Shown here piece after piece: positions 7,053-24,713 of a DNA stretch of 44,770 nt. The position numbers and the translations under genes were made by a program. The DNA comes from Ilumatobacteraceae bacterium. GTDB taxonomy: Bacteria; Actinomycetota; Acidimicrobiia; Acidimicrobiales; Ilumatobacteraceae. The stretch's first letter is position 1. Every line of letters begins with the position of its first letter. The DNA lies in NCBI GenBank assembly GCA_021298195.1, contig JAJTEQ010000008.1, forward strand, positions 1-44,770, in the 5' to 3' direction. Below the pieces are notes generated by a model. That model saw only the letters and a list, made by a program, of their open reading frames with translations. It had not been told where the DNA came from and did no database searches.

Positions 7053-7346
7053 TCACTTGACCACGATGGCGAGGACGTCACGGCTGGTGAGGATGAGCAG
7101 ATCCTCGCCGCCCGCGGTGATCTCGGTGCCGCCGTACTTGCTGTACAGGACGGTGTCTCCGACCTTCACGTCGAGAGCGAAGTGCTTGCCTTCGTCGTCG
7201 CTCCAGCGGCCGGGGCCCACGGCCAGGACTTCACCCTGCTGGGGCTTTTCCTTGGCGGTGTCGGGGATGACGAGGCCGGAAGCGGTGCGCTCCTCGGCTG
7301 CGTTGGGCCGGACCACGATTCGGTCATCGAGGGGCTTCAGGTTCAT
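7053..7346 (-). CDS. groES: Co-chaperonin GroES (Hsp10)
   Basis: Heptameric lid of the GroEL chamber, 97 aa. It begins [14 protein letters not shown]; the mobile loop is [21 protein letters not shown] (residues 18-38) and the roof/dome region follows with [14 protein letters not shown]. The ATG is preceded by AAAGG. First gene of the groES-groEL operon; the promoter and two CIRCE operators lie 59-134 bases upstream. Confidence 0.99.
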
Positions 7347-7404
7347 GGTGTCGAGCCTTTCGTTGGCGTGTGTTGTTTCTGGTCATGTCGACCGCCGGGA
7401 GGCG

Positions 7405-7431
7405 TTAGCACTCCCGTCGGTCGAGTGCCAA
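7405..7431. promoter_or_regulatory. CIRCE operator 1 (HrcA binding site)
   Basis: TTAGCACTC (7405-7413), nine bases, GAGTGCCAA (7423-7431). The consensus is TTAGCACTC-N9-GAGTGCTAA; there is a single mismatch. It abuts the -10 element of the groES promoter and would cover the transcription start, the usual place for HrcA repression. Confidence 0.92.
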
Positions 7432-7460
7432 GGATAGAGGTGGGGCTCGGGCGTTAGCAA
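7431..7460 (-). promoter_or_regulatory. groESL promoter
   Basis: On the minus strand the -35 is TTGCTA (7455-7460) and the -10 is TATCCT (7431-7436), 18 bases apart. The -35 lies inside the left half of CIRCE 2 and the -10 touches CIRCE 1, so both operators overlap RNA polymerase contacts. The expected start near 7424 gives a leader of about 78 bases. Confidence 0.7.
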
Positions 7461-7480
7461 CCGGAAGCCGAGAGTGCTAA
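7454..7480. promoter_or_regulatory. CIRCE operator 2, one half degenerate
   Basis: TTAGCAACC (7454-7462), nine bases, GAGTGCTAA (7472-7480). The right half is perfect and the left half has two mismatches. Those changes give TTGCTA on the minus strand, which serves as the promoter -35. Its centre is 49 bases from that of CIRCE 1. Confidence 0.85.
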
Positions 7481-7487
7481 CCCCCGG

Positions 7488-7539
7488 CGATCTGGGTCGC
7501 GAAAGTGACCGGTTTCGGTCACTTTCGCGACCCAGATCG
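7488..7539. repeat. Perfect 24-bp inverted repeat with 4-base loop
   Basis: The arms 7488-7511 and 7516-7539 are exact reverse complements around the loop GTTT (7512-7515). It starts 11 bases past the maf stop codon on the minus strand and ends just upstream of CIRCE 2. It could act as a terminator or insulator for maf, but there is no U-run on either side. It could also be a copy of a dispersed palindromic repeat. No second copy occurs in this window. Confidence 0.9.
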
Positions 7540-7550
7540 GGAGAGTGAGG

Positions 7551-8162
<612 letters not shown>

Positions 8163-8166
8163 GTCG

Positions 8167-9330
8167 TCAGCCTCCGGACAGCGCCATCACGTCGTCGTCG
8201 CAGGGGACGGTGAGGTCGTCGAGATGATCGAGATATCCGTCGGGCAACGCCACTCGAATGGGCCCGCTGGTCTTGCCGCGTCGGATGCGTTCACCACCAT
8301 CGACCACCGCGAGTTCCGATCCGTGAACGTCCGACATCTCGTCGAGCAGTCGATCCACCTCGTCCACGGTGGAGGTGGTGGCCAGACGGTGCCGAATGTC
8401 GCCACCCACCGGGAAACCGGTGAGGTACCACGACACGTGTTTGCGGAAGTCGCGCACCCCGCGTGGACTTCCGGACGCATCGGCTCCGAAATGTTCGTCG
8501 AGGGCCCGCACGTGCCTCTTCATCACGTCGACCACGAAACCCAGACGACGCGGAGGTGCCACCTCGCGACCGGCGAAGGCGTCCACCAGATCACCGAACA
8601 ACCACGGACGCCCGAGGCACCCGCGACCCACCACCACGCCGTCGCAACCGGTGTGTTCCACCATGCGCAACGCGTCCTCGGCGGTCCAGATGTCACCGTT
8701 GCCGAGCACCGGAATGGAGTGCACCGCCTGCTTCAAAGCGGCGATGGCGTCCCAGTCGGCTTCACCGCTGTAGTGCTGTTGCGCCGTGCGCGCGTGCAGG
8801 GCCACCGCGGCGATACCGGTGTCCATGGCGATGCGTCCGGTGTCGAGATACGTGATGAGGTCGTCGTCGATTCCCTTGCGGAACTTGGCGGTGACCGGAA
8901 TTCCGAACGGGGTCGCCGCTTCGACGGCCGCGGTCATGATGGCCCGCAACAAGTTGGGCTTGGCCGGCACCGCGGCGCCACCGCCCTTGCGGGTGACCTT
9001 GGCCGCGGGGCAACCGAAGTTCATGTCGATGTGGTCGACCGCACCGGCACCACCGAGTCGCTTGATCGCCTCGCTCAACATGCGCGGATCGCTTCCGTAC
9101 AACTGCAGGCTGCGCGGCGACTCACCGGGGGCGAAGGTGACCATGCGTTCGGTCTTGGCGCTGCCGTGCACCAGCGCGGTGGCCATCACCATCTCGTTCA
9201 CGTACAAGAGGCCCGGTGCGAACTCACGGCACAACGAACGGAACGGTGCGTTGGTGACCCCGGCCATGGGAGCCAACACCACCGGTGACGGCAAGGTCAA
9301 CGGTCCGATGCGCAACGCCGACGTCACCAC
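8167..9330 (-). CDS. dusB: tRNA-dihydrouridine synthase (DusB-like)
   Basis: FMN-dependent enzyme that reduces uridines in the tRNA D-loop. 387 aa: an N-terminal TIM barrel beginning LTLPSPVVLAPMAGVTN, the active-site motif IDMNFGCPAAKVTRKGGG with catalytic C107, then VTAKFRKG, ALHARTAQQHYSG and VVVGRGCLGRPWLFGD (FMN phosphate site). The C-terminal helical domain contains RDFRKHVSWYLTGFP. The GTG start (9330) overlaps the tsaD stop by seven bases, indicating coupled translation. Confidence 0.94.
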   Translation of the reverse strand: MVTSALRIGPLTLPSPVVLAPMAGVTNAPFRSLCREFAPGLLYVNEMVMATALVHGSAKTERMVTFAPGESPRSLQLYGSDPRMLSEAIKRLGGAGAVDHIDMNFGCPAAKVTRKGGGAAVPAKPNLLRAIMTAAVEAATPFGIPVTAKFRKGIDDDLITYLDTGRIAMDTGIAAVALHARTAQQHYSGEADWDAIAALKQAVHSIPVLGNGDIWTAEDALRMVEHTGCDGVVVGRGCLGRPWLFGDLVDAFAGREVAPPRRLGFVVDVMKRHVRALDEHFGADASGSPRGVRDFRKHVSWYLTGFPVGGDIRHRLATTSTVDEVDRLLDEMSDVHGSELAVVDGGERIRRGKTSGPIRVALPDGYLDHLDDLTVPCDDDVMALSGG

Positions 9331-10373
9331 GAGCCGTCCATCAGGGGCAGTCGGAGGTTGGGGAACGCCCCGGTGTCGAGCGCGGTCGGTCCGTCACTGC
9401 GCAAGCGGTACCACGCGGCGGCGCCGATCATGGCGGCGTTGTCGGTGCACATCGCCCGACTCGGCACCAGGCAGTCGCGCCCGTCCTCGGCGCACATCGC
9501 GGCGAAACGCTCGCGCAACAAGGAGTTGGCCGCCACTCCCCCGCCGAGCACCACGCCCTTGGCGCCCACCTGTTCGGCGGCTCGGCGCGCCTTGTGCACC
9601 AACACGTCGACCACGGCGGTTTGGAACGAGGCGGCCACGTCGGCGGTGCGCACCGCGGGGTTCTTGCGCACGAAATTGATGACCGAGGTCTTCAGGCCGC
9701 TGAAGCTGAAATCGAGACCGTCGTTGCGCATGGCACGCGGGAAGTCGATGGCGTTCGCGTCACCCTCGCGAGCGATGGCGTCGACGGCCGGACCACCGGG
9801 ATAACCCAGATCGAGAAAACGTGCCACCTTGTCGAAGGCCTCGCCGGCGGCGTCGTCGATGGTACGACCGAGCAATCGGTACTCACCGTGGTTCCGCATC
9901 TCGATCAACATCGTGTGGCCGCCCGACACCAACAACACCACCAACGGCAGTTCCAGTTCGGGCTTCTCCAACAAACCGGCGTACAGGTGGGCCTCGAGGT
10001 GATTCACACCGACGTACGGAACGTCCCACGTGAGCGCCAGCGACTTGGCCGCCGACACTCCCACCAGCAAAGCGCCGATGAGGCCGGGACCGTGCGTGGC
10101 GGCGACGGCGTCGATGCGCGTCTCGTCCACTCCCGACTCCACGATGGCGCGCGCCACCACCGGGTTCAACAGGTCGAGATGAGCACGACCGGCGATCTCG
10201 GGGACGACACCGCCGTATTGCGCGTGAAGATCGATCTGCGAGCTGACCACACTCGACAGAACGTCGACTCCACCCATCACCAACGACGCGGCGGTCTCGT
10301 CGCAACTGGTCTCGATGGCCAACACGACGGTGGAGGCGTCGACGGGACGCAGGTGCTTGCCGGTCGTGCTCAT
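9324..10373 (-). CDS. tsaD: tRNA t6A synthase subunit TsaD
   Basis: Transfers threonylcarbamoyl from TC-AMP to A37 of ANN-decoding tRNAs, acting with TsaB and TsaE. 349 aa with LAIETSCDETAASLV (18-32), metal-binding H125 and H129 in VNHLEAHL, SGGHT, DDAAGEAFDKVAR, GGGVAANSLLR and CTDNAAMIG. The frame is open far upstream, but the ATG at 10373 overlaps the rimI stop as ATGA and gives the standard N-terminus, so the longer frame is rejected. All four genes tsaE-tsaB-rimI-tsaD are consecutive and overlapping. Confidence 0.97.
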   Translation of the reverse strand: MSTTGKHLRPVDASTVVLAIETSCDETAASLVMGGVDVLSSVVSSQIDLHAQYGGVVPEIAGRAHLDLLNPVVARAIVESGVDETRIDAVAATHGPGLIGALLVGVSAAKSLALTWDVPYVGVNHLEAHLYAGLLEKPELELPLVVLLVSGGHTMLIEMRNHGEYRLLGRTIDDAAGEAFDKVARFLDLGYPGGPAVDAIAREGDANAIDFPRAMRNDGLDFSFSGLKTSVINFVRKNPAVRTADVAASFQTAVVDVLVHKARRAAEQVGAKGVVLGGGVAANSLLRERFAAMCAEDGRDCLVPSRAMCTDNAAMIGAAAWYRLRSDGPTALDTGAFPNLRLPLMDGSW

Positions 10374-19548: not shown

Positions 19549-19920
19549 TCAGTCCGTTGCGATGACGTAGGCGATCGCCGTGGAGTCGGTGTGGGTGAGG
19601 GACAGATGCCACGCACCGATCCCCCGACCTTGCGCCAATTCCAACGCGGTCCCCGCCACCCGCAGGATCGGGGATCCCGACGGTTCGCGCTCGACCCACA
19701 CGTCGTGGAATCCGAAAGCTCCCAATCCGACACCCATCGCCTTCATGGTCGCCTCGCGGGCGGCGAAACGCGCGGCCAACGACGGAACATGGTCCGCCCG
19801 TTCGGCCAACTGCGACAACTCGATGGTCGTGAAAAGTCGATCCCGCATGGATGGCGTGCGGGTCAATGCGGTTCGGAAGCGTTCGACGTCGACGGCATCG
19901 ACGCCGATGCCGCGGATCAT
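19549..19920 (-). CDS. acpS: Holo-[acyl-carrier-protein] synthase AcpS
   Basis: Transfers 4'-phosphopantetheine from CoA to acyl carrier protein. 123 aa with GIGVDAVDVERF at the N-terminus (metal-binding Asp), FAAREATMKAMGVGLG (catalytic Glu/Lys region) and HLSLTHTDSTAIAYVIA at the C-terminus. The ATG at 19920 overlaps the glmS-like stop (ATGA). An upstream in-frame ATG at 19935 lies inside the preceding gene and is less likely. Confidence 0.96.
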   Translation of the reverse strand: MIRGIGVDAVDVERFRTALTRTPSMRDRLFTTIELSQLAERADHVPSLAARFAAREATMKAMGVGLGAFGFHDVWVEREPSGSPILRVAGTALELAQGRGIGAWHLSLTHTDSTAIAYVIATD

Positions 19921-22900
19921 GCCGGTCGTCGCCAACGATCGGCCATGTCGCTGATGGGCACGATCAGAAGATCGGCGACGGGAATCTCCGCGAGCAGGTC
20001 GTCGCGCATCTCGCCCTCGGTCTCACTCACCCAGTCCACCAATCGGTCGTAGCGTCGGTCGTACCCCTGGAGCACCGTGCGCATGACGGGAGCCGACAAG
20101 CGATCGTGGAAACGCACGTGCACGAGGGTGATGCCCACCGTCTGACCGGACTTCACCTCCGGGACGAAGATCACGGTCCGTCCGTCACCGCGTCCCCGGG
20201 CCACCAGGACCTCGCGCTCGTTCGCCACCCGACGCTTGGTTCCCACCAGTGACGGATTGCGATCGACACGGCTCGGAACGTCGCGCGACAAACCACCCCG
20301 GTCGACGACGGCGATCGACGCGTTCGAGGTGCTCGGATCTCCCTCGATCGAATAGCGGGTGAAACCAACCACCGCTTCCACGGCCGGATCGAGATCGGCC
20401 AGAACCTTCAGGGTGCGATACGACAACACGTCGCGACCGGCACCGGTGGCCAGCACCTCGCGCACGAGAGCCCGATCCATGATGCCCTCGTCGCTGCGAC
20501 TGATACCGACCGTCACCGTCTTGGCCTGATGCTTGATGGCGTCCACCGGACGCGTGAGTTCCTCGATGGCGCGCGTGAGCGCCATGGTCAGGTCGTCGAT
20601 GAGCGCCGACGGTGAACCCACTTTCCCGGTCTCGTTCTGGTGCGCTTCCACCGGAGACGCGTCGAGGATCACGCGCAGCATGGTGGCGACGCGAACCGCG
20701 GTGCTGGCTTCCAGATGACCGTCGTAGGAGCCCGAACGCAACACGTCCTGGAAGCGCTCGGCCATCGGGCGCACACCGGACCGAACCGCCGCCACGACCT
20801 GTTCGGCCTCGGCACGCGACACCACTGCGTGTTCCACGATCTCACGGGCCTCGCGCAGCGGACGCGCCAACTCGTCGATGGCCAAAGCCGCCTCATAACC
20901 GAACAAGTGGCCCGCCATGGCGCTGAGAATGAAGGCCAGGCTGGGATCGATGTCGGGCACGGTGATCACCGCGTGGGCCGCGTCGAAACGCGACTCGGAC
21001 TCGTTGGCCACCACGATGGGAGTGGCCTTGTGCGCCCGGTAGATCGCGATCTCCTTGGCCACGTCGTCGGCGGTGCTGCCGACCAGACCCGAGGCGCACA
21101 CCAGGATCAACGGCTCGCAGGACAGGTCGATGTGCTTCTTGTCCTCGGTGACGTCGCAGGAGATGCTCTTGTAACAGAGTTCGCTCAACTTGATGCGCAC
21201 CTCGTTGGCCGCGATGGCGTTGGGCCCGTTACCGACGACGGCCCAATAACGCTTCGACGGCGCGTATCGTCGCGCGATGTCGGCGACGGCTCCACGACGA
21301 GCGATGACCGCTCGCATCGCGTCGGGCACGGTGCGCAGGGCCGCCAACAAATCGTGACGTCGTTGGTCGGAACCGACACCGGCGGCCTCACTGATGGCGC
21401 ACGCCAAGAGGACTCCGGCGGCGACCTGGGCGTAGAACGCCTTGGTGGAGGCCACGCTCATCTCGACGTCGCGTCCGTCGCTGGTGAACAGCACCCCGTC
21501 GGACTTCTCGCACAGATCGCTCCCCCGACGGTTCACGATGGCGATCACCGCGGCCCCACGGCCCCGCGCGAGATCGACGGTGCGATTGGTGTCGGTGGTG
21601 GTGCCACTCTGGCTCACGGCCACGATCAGAGTGTCCGACATGTCGAGGCGCAGATTGAATCCGCTCAGTTCGGTGGCGGTGATCGGGTCGACGTCGAGTT
21701 CGCCCCCGCACAGTTCGTCCAGGACCGAGGCACAGCTGCGGCCGGCGATGGCCGCCGTTCCTTGGCCGATGACGCGAACCTTGTCGATGGTCCCGTCGGC
21801 CAAGCGCCGGCGGATGTCGTCGGGTAGCGAGCGAGCACCGACGGTGGCGACCAGTCGACCATCGACCTCGACGATCTTGCCACGCAAGGTCTTGCGGAAG
21901 CTCTCGGGCGCCTCGCCGATCTCCTTCAACAGGAAGTGCGGCGAGTCGCCACGATCGATGTCGCGCGTGGTCACTTCGGCGGTGATCAAGGTCCGATCGT
22001 CGACCGGAATCATGGAACCGTCGTAACCGATTCGTTCCACACCATCGAGTTCCCCGGCTCGTCGTCCGTCGAGAACGACGATCTGGCCGGCGCCGGCCCC
22101 TTCACCATCGAGCCTGAAATAGCGATTGGTTTCCTCCACCACTCCGTACGGCTCACTGGCCACGATGAAGAGGTCCTCGGCCAGACCGACGAACAATCCC
22201 TGTCCGCTTCCGTGGAGGGCCAACAACAATCGCTCGGGATCGTCGGTGGCCGCGGCCGCGATGGCCACCGAGCCTTCGAAGGAGGCCACGGTGCGCCGGA
22301 ACGCTTCGGGCGTGTCGCCACAATCCTGACGATGCTTGGTGACCAAGGCCGGGATCACCTTGGCATCGGTGGTGATCTGGCCCGGGAAGGAAAGACCGTG
22401 CATGATGCGAAGATCGGCGTGGTTGTCGACGTCACCATTCAGCGCGGCGATGACGTACGGCCGTTCGGCGTCGGCGAGTGATCGTTCGCTGTTCACCGGA
22501 TGGGCGTTCGGTTCGCTGATGATGCCCACGCTCGCCCACCGTGTGTGACCCACCAAGGACGTTCGGGCGCCCGGGTGTGACAACGCCCGGCGCAACAGAT
22601 CGTCGGTGCGCACCGCGTCACGCATCACCTTCGTGTTGTCGCCGAGCTCGCCGATCTCGGCGGCCGCTTTGTACACGAACGACAACACGCCGTCGATCCA
22701 ACGCACCGAACCACTCTGGAAGAGCGGGTCGGTGGCCCGCGCGTCGAGTGCCGTGCGCAGATCGGATTCACCGAGACCGTGGCCCCACACGAAGACGTGG
22801 ATGCCCGCGGAGTCGCGTCCGCGAACCTCCATGCGGTCGATGGCGGCGAAGGCCTGCTGGATCATCAGGTAGCCGGACAACGTGGCCACCCCGGCGTCGC

Positions 22901-23291
22901 GACCGGCCAGGTCGGCCACGGCGCGAGCGGTGCGCAGGCGGTCACGTCCGATCGACCACACGGCGTCGCGGGCCGCGATCAGTTCGGCCGCGGCGGCCTC
23001 CAGCCGCTCGGGGTCCAGACTCGCGGTCTCGAGAGCGGTGTCGGCGGTGGCGATCGTGGCGTCGAGACGGGCCAGTCGGGACTCGATGCCCGAGATCAAC
23101 TCCCGGTTCCCGGCCAGGGCCATCACCCCGGGGACCCCCTTGAGCAACTCGTTCACGGCCGCCACCTGCGTGGTCGCCGCGACGATGTCGGATCCACAGT
23201 TCACGGCGGCGTCGAGGCGCGCCAGGATGTCGGTGGCACTCGGGACCGGCCTGGTGAAGGGTCGGGCGCTCAACGCGATGATGCCGCACAT
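19917..23291 (-). CDS. glmS: Giant GlmS-like glutamine--fructose-6-phosphate aminotransferase (1124 aa)
   Basis: Occupies the normal glmS place between glmM and acpS, so it probably makes glucosamine 6-phosphate, but it is 1124 aa against about 610 for typical GlmS. Seen: MCGII with nucleophile C2; RGRDSAGI (157-164); GHTRWASVG (248-256); NAHPVNS (262-268); LNGDVDN (284-290). First SIS domain with SQSGTTTDT (560-568) and SVASTKAFYAQ (612-622). Second SIS domain with E697, K701, E704 and H720, spaced exactly as E. coli E481, K485, E488 and H504. Extra parts: about 10-138, a helical insert right after the nucleophile strand; about 812-915, helical; about 930-1124, a mixed tail of no known family. 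AIKHQAKTVTVG (918-929) resembles the end of ordinary GlmS. One frame throughout, no sign of frameshift. A leaderless-type -10 precedes the ATG. Confidence 0.88.
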   Translation of the reverse strand: MCGIIALSARPFTRPVPSATDILARLDAAVNCGSDIVAATTQVAAVNELLKGVPGVMALAGNRELISGIESRLARLDATIATADTALETASLDPERLEAAAAELIAARDAVWSIGRDRLRTARAVADLAGRDAGVATLSGYLMIQQAFAAIDRMEVRGRDSAGIHVFVWGHGLGESDLRTALDARATDPLFQSGSVRWIDGVLSFVYKAAAEIGELGDNTKVMRDAVRTDDLLRRALSHPGARTSLVGHTRWASVGIISEPNAHPVNSERSLADAERPYVIAALNGDVDNHADLRIMHGLSFPGQITTDAKVIPALVTKHRQDCGDTPEAFRRTVASFEGSVAIAAAATDDPERLLLALHGSGQGLFVGLAEDLFIVASEPYGVVEETNRYFRLDGEGAGAGQIVVLDGRRAGELDGVERIGYDGSMIPVDDRTLITAEVTTRDIDRGDSPHFLLKEIGEAPESFRKTLRGKIVEVDGRLVATVGARSLPDDIRRRLADGTIDKVRVIGQGTAAIAGRSCASVLDELCGGELDVDPITATELSGFNLRLDMSDTLIVAVSQSGTTTDTNRTVDLARGRGAAVIAIVNRRGSDLCEKSDGVLFTSDGRDVEMSVASTKAFYAQVAAGVLLACAISEAAGVGSDQRRHDLLAALRTVPDAMRAVIARRGAVADIARRYAPSKRYWAVVGNGPNAIAANEVRIKLSELCYKSISCDVTEDKKHIDLSCEPLILVCASGLVGSTADDVAKEIAIYRAHKATPIVVANESESRFDAAHAVITVPDIDPSLAFILSAMAGHLFGYEAALAIDELARPLREAREIVEHAVVSRAEAEQVVAAVRSGVRPMAERFQDVLRSGSYDGHLEASTAVRVATMLRVILDASPVEAHQNETGKVGSPSALIDDLTMALTRAIEELTRPVDAIKHQAKTVTVGISRSDEGIMDRALVREVLATGAGRDVLSYRTLKVLADLDPAVEAVVGFTRYSIEGDPSTSNASIAVVDRGGLSRDVPSRVDRNPSLVGTKRRVANEREVLVARGRGDGRTVIFVPEVKSGQTVGITLVHVRFHDRLSAPVMRTVLQGYDRRYDRLVDWVSETEGEMRDDLLAEIPVADLLIVPISDMADRWRRPA

Positions 23292-23345: not shown

Positions 23346-24713
23346 TCAACGGCACTTGTCGAGAGCCGCCGCCACCAGGCGCTCGGCCACGGCGTCGGCC
23401 AGTTCCGGGGTTCCGGCCTCCACCATCACGCGTACCACCGGCTCGGTTCCCGATGACCGCACCAGCACTCGTCCGTTGACGCCCAACTGTGCCTCTTCGG
23501 CGGCGATCTCGGCGGACAGCAACCCGGCCACGTCATCGGGACGGCGCGCCACCCGCACGTTCTTCAGGACCTGGGGCAAGCTGTGCATCACCGACGAGGC
23601 GACGTTCGAGAACCGCCCACCACGGCGACGCATCATGCGGGCCAACACCACCGCCGCCAGCAAACCGTCGCCGGTCGTGGCGAGATCACGATGAATGATG
23701 TGTCCGCTCTGCTCGCCACCCAGCACGAAGCCACCGGTCTCCATGGCGTCGAGCACCAATCGATCACCGACGCCGGTGGTGACCACCGTGACACCCGCCC
23801 CGCTCATGGCTCGGTGGAAGCCCAGGTTCGACATCACGGTGACGACCACGGTGTCGCCCGCGAGCGTGCCGGCATCGCGCCGGTCGAGCGCCGACAACGC
23901 GATCAATCGATCACCGTCGACGACCCGACCGTTCTCGTCGACGGCGATCAGCCGATCTCCGTCGCCGTCGAACGCGAAACCCATGTCGACCGAGATTCCC
24001 GTTCCGGTTCCGCTGATGAAGTCGCACAACGCCTGCGGCGCCGTGGCCCCGCACTTGTCGTTGATGTTCGTGCCGTCGGGCGCGTCGTTCATGGTGATCA
24101 CGTCGGCGCCGAGACGTTGCAACAGCAACGGTGCGACCTTGCTCATCGCTCCGTTCGCCGTGTCGATGACCACCCGCAATCCGGCGAGTGATCCCTCTCC
24201 GAAGATCTCGACGAGATGATCGACGTACATGGTGACGCCGTCACTACGTCGCATGACCACGCCCACTTCAAGATCGCGCGGAATCGGGCCGGTCCCCTCG
24301 TCGAGGATGCGCCACGTCTCGGCTTCGATGGCGCGTTCCTGATGATCGAGCAATTTGCGACCACCAGCGGCGAAGACCTTCACACCGTTGTCGGTGTACT
24401 TGTTGTGCGAGGCCGTGATGACGACGGCCGGCACCTCCTCGCGTTGCGAGATCATGGCCAGCGCCGGCGTGGGCAGGACACCGAATTCCTCGACCCTCAC
24501 GCCCTCGGCGGAGGCACCTGCGGAGAACGCGGCTTCCAGAATGGGCCCGGAAACACGGGGATCTCGACCGAGGACGACCCGAGTCGGTCGAAGAACGCGA
24601 GCCACGGCACGGCCGAGAGCCATCACGTATTCAGGTGACACCTCGACGATCGCCTGACCCCGCACACCGTCGGTGCCGAAGCCGGGATGGGGCGACTTGC
24701 TGACGCCCGACAT
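23346..24713 (-). CDS. glmM: Phosphoglucosamine mutase GlmM
   Basis: Isomerises glucosamine 6-phosphate to 1-phosphate on the way to UDP-GlcNAc. 455 aa. N-terminal FGTDGVRG; active-site phosphoserine S102 in VVITASHNKYTDNG; magnesium loop FDGDGDR; sugar-binding GGEQSGH; C-terminal phosphate site VRSSGTEPVVRVM. The gene lies 12 bases after rpsI, linking cell-wall precursor synthesis to ribosomal protein transcription, a common actinobacterial arrangement. Confidence 0.98.
   Translation of the reverse strand: MSGVSKSPHPGFGTDGVRGQAIVEVSPEYVMALGRAVARVLRPTRVVLGRDPRVSGPILEAAFSAGASAEGVRVEEFGVLPTPALAMISQREEVPAVVITASHNKYTDNGVKVFAAGGRKLLDHQERAIEAETWRILDEGTGPIPRDLEVGVVMRRSDGVTMYVDHLVEIFGEGSLAGLRVVIDTANGAMSKVAPLLLQRLGADVITMNDAPDGTNINDKCGATAPQALCDFISGTGTGISVDMGFAFDGDGDRLIAVDENGRVVDGDRLIALSALDRRDAGTLAGDTVVVTVMSNLGFHRAMSGAGVTVVTTGVGDRLVLDAMETGGFVLGGEQSGHIIHRDLATTGDGLLAAVVLARMMRRRGGRFSNVASSVMHSLPQVLKNVRVARRPDDVAGLLSAEIAAEEAQLGVNGRVLVRSSGTEPVVRVMVEAGTPELADAVAERLVAAALDKCR

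Follow-up and report, generated by a model that had tools for sequence, protein, structure and literature searches.

A 44,770-nucleotide stretch of DNA from an Ilumatobacteraceae bacterium (contig JAJTEQ010000008.1; hereafter the window) carries on its minus strand a gene (19917..23291) for a protein of 1124 amino acids that resembles GlmS, the glucosamine 6-phosphate (GlcN6P) synthase and gate into the amino sugars of peptidoglycan. On balance, we lean towards the view that this long form is the cell's GlcN6P synthase, belonging to an ancient and separate subfamily, and that its added parts most likely gate the coupling between its two active sites. That the long form serves these bacteria as their GlcN6P synthase is very probable, the reaction being one that we infer from sequence. 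In many members of one actinobacterial class, the sugar that begins the cell wall would thus seem to be made by an enzyme nearly double the normal length. We found no description of a long GlmS form in the literature searched.

The gene is one uninterrupted frame in the list of open reading frames, running from an ATG start to a stop codon at 19917-19919. Fifty long proteins, namely that of the window with 49 relatives, were aligned with 17 ordinary ones, comprising E. coli K-12 GlmS (609 amino acids) and 16 from the class; four of the 20 ordinary loci fetched (L055, L061, L062 and L066) were left out, having been missed by the motif filter. In the mature E. coli numbering used for this comparison, Cys2 of the window protein (23286..23288), the N-terminal nucleophile of the glutaminase, aligns with Cys1. 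The catalytic set E697, K701, E704 and H720 (21132..21203) has the same spacing as E. coli E481, K485, E488 and H504, and is kept in all 50 long and all 17 ordinary proteins. Every long protein also carries the E. coli residue at C1, R26, R73, W74, H86, N98, G99, D123, G301, S347, Q348, S349, G350, T352, V399, S401 (which varies within the ordinary set), T402, K403, E481, K485, E488, K503, H504, A602 and K603. T302 is kept in 49 of the 50, and S303 is alanine in all of them, as in 3 of the 17 ordinary proteins. The glutaminase (N-terminal nucleophile, Ntn, amidotransferase) domain and linker resume at residues 147-430 (22002..22853), with R157, R251, W252, N285, G286 and D309, and are followed by the two SIS-fold subdomains of the isomerase (residues 431-805; 20877..22001). 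Pfam finds one SIS domain and a GATase_6 domain.

Whereas the catalytic residues are conventional, the coupling apparatus is not, and most of the contacts known from E. coli have been lost. Across the long family Y28 is replaced by R, T76 by S, C300 by Q (49/50), E351 by T, G505-P506 by I-D and E608 by G, with H77 changed to V in 43 and H97 to L in 45 of the 50. R539, an important residue of E. coli GlmS, is histidine in every long protein, and R331 gives way to varied residues, mostly G (19) or H (10). In the window protein SQSGET reads SQSGTT, and GELKHGP reads EDKKHID. According to excerpts of PMC8041777, the C-tail of GlmS holds residues of both active sites and forms the principal mobile part between the domains, restrained in E. 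coli by an R331-E608 salt bridge. R33 and Y35 of human GFAT-1, which move (PMC7000685, excerpt), were matched here to E. coli R26 and Y28. An earlier note on the window, made from its letters alone, had described the unbroken frame with Cys2 and both SIS domains, the E. coli spacing of the catalytic set and the two altered motifs; all of this is borne out, and the strand, which the note left unstated, is minus.

Three added segments account for the length. Insert 1 (residues 8-146; 22854..23270) is helical and follows strand 1 of the glutaminase, ahead of its first core helix; this interval measures 138-174 residues in the 50 long proteins versus 10 in the 17 ordinary ones. Insert 2 (residues 806-916; 20544..20876), also helical, separates the last isomerase helix from the C-tail by 110-129 residues versus 11. 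The C-tail motif itself, DAIKHQAKTVTVG (residues 917-929; 20505..20543), in which A923 and K924 correspond to E. coli A602 and K603, is therefore internal, whereas E. coli GlmS ends in PRNLAKSVTVE. Beyond it, the tail domain (residues 930-1124; 19920..20504) has a median of 194 residues in the long proteins (the lowest, 130, in a protein cut by a contig end) versus none. The three segments occur as a set across the long family, and the note had placed them correctly to within several residues. Mean pairwise identity over 68 aligned proteins is lowest in insert 1 (36%) and rises through insert 2 (51%), the tail (57%), the rest of the glutaminase (61%) and the isomerase (67%) to 98% in the C-tail. 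With 23 invariant positions out of 195, the tail is conserved to nearly the same degree as the catalytic glutaminase.

The folds of the added segments are predicted ones. A whole-chain model of the window protein reached a predicted local distance difference test (pLDDT) score of 87.3 and a predicted template modelling (pTM) score of 0.77. Both inserts were predicted well: insert 1 as helices at 19-31, 36-49 and 52-59 and a long pair at 63-89 and 94-129, insert 2 as the remainder of helix 787-825 followed by 829-853, 862-876, 880-888 and 894-913. Searches of insert 1 against Pfam and PDB sequences gave sub-threshold matches only. The tail is predicted to adopt a mixed alpha/beta, sensor-like fold (PAS/GAF/Cache-type), and its strong matches all lie within long GlmS genes or pieces of such genes. 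The note had found no recognisable family in the tail and had proposed that the tail might act as a sensor, which the predicted fold weakly supports and sequence families do not.

The curated cut-offs for GlmS miss the long form. The window protein scores 228.8 bits against the GlmS equivalog model TIGR01135 (E 1.2e-67; cut-off 418.05) and 256.7 bits against NF001484 (E 3.8e-76; cut-off 381), and the best matches to it among PDB sequences are GlmS of E. coli and GFAT-1 of humans. A protein search of the class covered 296 genomes, an even sample of a larger group, with up to two candidates scored per genome; 280 were matched and 119 (hand count), about 40% of the sample, carried the long gene either whole or in pieces. 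TIGR01135, screened over 292 class genomes with up to four candidates each, passed its cut-off in 157, and in none of the 117 long-form genomes screened. The window's copy is the only GlmS match in its genome as assembled (91% complete), in which no other GlmS or SIS match and no NagB match was found. This genome also holds a GlmU-like gene (G000:C12:34211-35293; 346.8 bits, cut-off 366.85). The match spans model positions 3-345 of 452 in a 449-amino-acid frame, and the acetyltransferase half of the protein may be divergent.

A search of 396 genomes of the phylum also showed the long form in nine genomes outside the class, from four families: f61 (G329, G301), f68 (G335), f88 (G468) and f91 (G526, G409, G448, G536, G390). 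A standard GlmS accompanies it in one of these nine, G335 (5% contamination), the only double found, and two relatives from that genome's family lack the tail. In the class of G448 the tail was present in 6 of 24 genomes, with mixed occurrence within f88 (1/2) and f91 (5/6).

The long gene sits where glmS is usually found. Among 80 named long loci, GlmM was detected immediately upstream, in the same orientation, in 73 and AcpS immediately downstream in 64; for 20 ordinary loci hand-picked from the class, the counts are 17 and 19. Four of the seven long loci without GlmM have less than 310 bases upstream, the other three 1.2-2.1 kb. Where AcpS was not detected (16 long loci), the sequence stops within 26 bases in five, and in 11 a stretch of 1.8-5 kb gave no match. 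The three ordinary loci without GlmM have more than 3 kb of flank. Seven long loci from outside the class were taken whole: the slot is kept in L154, whereas no GlmM, AcpS, Nnr or Alr was found in L153 or L155-L159 within flanks of up to 3.5 kb (upstream only 1.1 kb in L155 and 0.3 kb in L158). The five f91 genomes behind L155-L159 had no standard GlmS over cut-off. Two pieces of G468 (L160 and L161) show GlmM on one side and Nnr with Alr on the other. In L153 (G335:C313:17400-27800) the long gene, whose membership in G335 is in doubt given the contamination, adjoins a large minus-strand frame (7340-10312) that by eye resembles a family 38 glycoside hydrolase.

In the window, the genes directly upstream and downstream, both on the minus strand, are glmM (23346..24713; named by eye and from its place) and acpS (19549..19935; named by eye from its translation). 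The acpS gene begins 19 nucleotides before the long gene ends (19917-19935), an overlap that suggests translational coupling. Relatives of full length are present in numerous assemblies, among them single-contig genomes (G002, G003, G027, G110, G157 and G190) and the complete isolate genome of Aquihabitans sp. G128 (NZ_CP077604.1; L126), and the long frame is therefore no misassembly. A GlmS-like enzyme in the glmS slot, as the note had it, agrees with the single GlmS match and the intact catalytic residues; neither a second glmS in the genome nor a misjoined frame, which would have spoken against it, was found.

Judged by its core, the long form is a separate, deeply branching GlmS subfamily, for which the note's 'regulated or rearranged' proved too mild in its second term: more than a local rearrangement is involved. 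In the core tree, one fully supported branch splits 26 long from 32 ordinary rows, its halves measuring 3.2 and 2.5 changes per column, and E. coli falls among the ordinary actinobacterial rows. GlmM sequences with more than 380 aligned residues were obtained from 102 of 133 loci, and the tree of these with the window (103 rows) requires seven changes of label between long and ordinary neighbours, at least five of them forced by well supported branches. A more careful tree of 37 rows, hand-chosen after the first had been seen, gave nine changes and rejected a single clade of long-form neighbours (approximately unbiased test, p-AU 4.8e-48). Because of these label changes, long and ordinary GlmS have been swapped several times beside glmM, unless glmM itself moved.

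How might the added parts act? As in E. coli, Cys2 would free ammonia from glutamine, the ammonia would travel through a channel whose wall the C-tail forms, and E697, K701, E704, H720 and K924 would turn fructose 6-phosphate into GlcN6P. With the C-tail and hinge contacts of E. coli gone, coupling between the two sites would differ. The C-tail would run inside the chain, with a helical bundle (insert 2) before it and the sensor-like tail domain after it, and insert 1 would be a helical arm rising from the nucleophile strand. Most likely the added parts keep the C-tail ordered, and the channel and the sugar site would open or close when the tail binds a small molecule or a partner. Gating by a putative effector is most likely the purpose of the added domains. 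A fuller version, in which the C-tail is wired between helical bundle and metabolite sensor for allosteric control of cell-wall entry, in a subfamily that repeatedly swapped slots across Actinomycetota, we put forward tentatively, at somewhat less than even chances. With conserved added domains flanking its C-tail, the catalytic residues kept and most coupling contacts gone, the long form would be a natural test of active-site coupling. If the fuller version is correct, these bacteria would control the first step towards the cell wall directly, by allostery.

Feedback inhibition by uridine diphosphate N-acetylglucosamine (UDP-GlcNAc) is given in excerpts of PMC7000685 as the main feature dividing eukaryotic from prokaryotic GFAT, with R343, T447, G461 and H463 as site residues in human GFAT-1. 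Their hand-mapped counterparts in the window protein are Lys472 (a mild change), Val586, Val600 and Phe602, so UDP-GlcNAc sensing, which the note suggested for the tail, is not supported at this eukaryotic site; a different, new site for it in the tail is conceivable. The model TIGR01826 for GlmR/YvcK-type proteins scored over its threshold in 33 of 57 genomes with the long form and in 46 of 91 other genomes, suggesting that the long form is no substitute for such a protein; this test is weak, as the model gave no match in the Bacillus subtilis control genome. GlmR was described in B. subtilis. Within the window's family (f1), none of the 12 genomes searched passed the TIGR01826 cut-off, whereas many related families do.

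Several observations weigh against gating by a tail sensor in a true GlcN6P synthase. All nine structural matches listed for the tail are sensor-type, yet the match is weak; no PAS or GAF family appeared at E ≤ 1 when 34 members were scanned against Pfam, no PAS or GAF match was found among PDB sequences, and profile-profile comparison gave no support for a sensor fold. Residues 915-935, around the C-tail, are the only long stretch of the model with low confidence, and R331 is still present in 4 of the 50 long proteins. A purely structural role, in which the same enzyme and reaction are retained and the extra parts set the oligomeric state or stabilize the C-tail with no effector, draws on this marginal fold match; helical, well-predicted inserts, the poor conservation of insert 1 (as expected of a packing element) and lost C-tail contacts that would call for a substitute also fit it. 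We nevertheless regard it as unlikely, since the tail's conservation, with its invariant positions, and the uniformly sensor-type matches argue for more than packing. An effector protein docked by the helical insert or the tail, in place of a metabolite, seems improbable. The long helical pair of insert 1 would suit it, and PAS/GAF-type folds serve as docking modules too, but the independence of TIGR01826 from the long form argues, weakly given the missed control, against one such partner.

The remaining points against our reading concern the reaction: the long and ordinary clades lie about 5.7 changes per column apart, neighbours of the sugar site are altered (C300 to Q510, E351 to T564, ELKHGP to EDKKHID), and both curated cut-offs are missed. 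All three would fit a GlmS-derived amidotransferase for another sugar-phosphate, one that stayed at this locus in cells that get their GlcN6P by another route. That catalytic residues are retained in 50 of 50 proteins, with the tested sugar ligands kept apart from the T302 and S303 exceptions, speaks against this, as do the lack of any other GlmS or SIS match and of any NagB match in the 91% complete genome of the window, its GlmU-like gene and the exchange with ordinary GlmS beside glmM, and we rate it the least probable of the alternatives. The long form as a gated GlcN6P synthase therefore remains our preferred reading, in which the note's observations are confirmed and its interpretation is partly supported.

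Compared with E. coli GlmS, the long form shares the Ntn glutaminase, the two SIS subdomains, the C-tail and all tested catalytic residues, as well as the slot beside glmM, as in ordinary members of the class; with 159 of 602 aligned residues identical, it differs by 515 additional residues in three segments, a C-tail moved off the chain end of a protein normally near 600-690 residues in GlmS and GFAT, and replacement of Y28, R539 and E608. Tn7 inserts just downstream of glmS, whose coding-region end is bound by TnsD (PMC2918618, excerpt). In the long form some 590 bases separate the C-tail motif (20505-20543) from the stop codon, and a Tn7-type insertion would consequently hit the long gene. 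The large glutamate dehydrogenase of M. smegmatis, L-GDH180 (7jsr), is a different enzyme, with a PAS-type domain; in a small alignment of seven frames, at least one of them possibly the wrong one, hhalign gave a probability of 0.3% for homology between its N-terminal part (760 reference residues) and the tail. UDP-GlcNAc-inhibited eukaryotic GFAT-1 has the same core and is among the best full-length structural matches of the long form, which does not keep its known UDP-GlcNAc site residues; the extended loops of human GFAT-1 belong to its glutaminase domain (PMC7000685, excerpt) and do not surround the C-tail.
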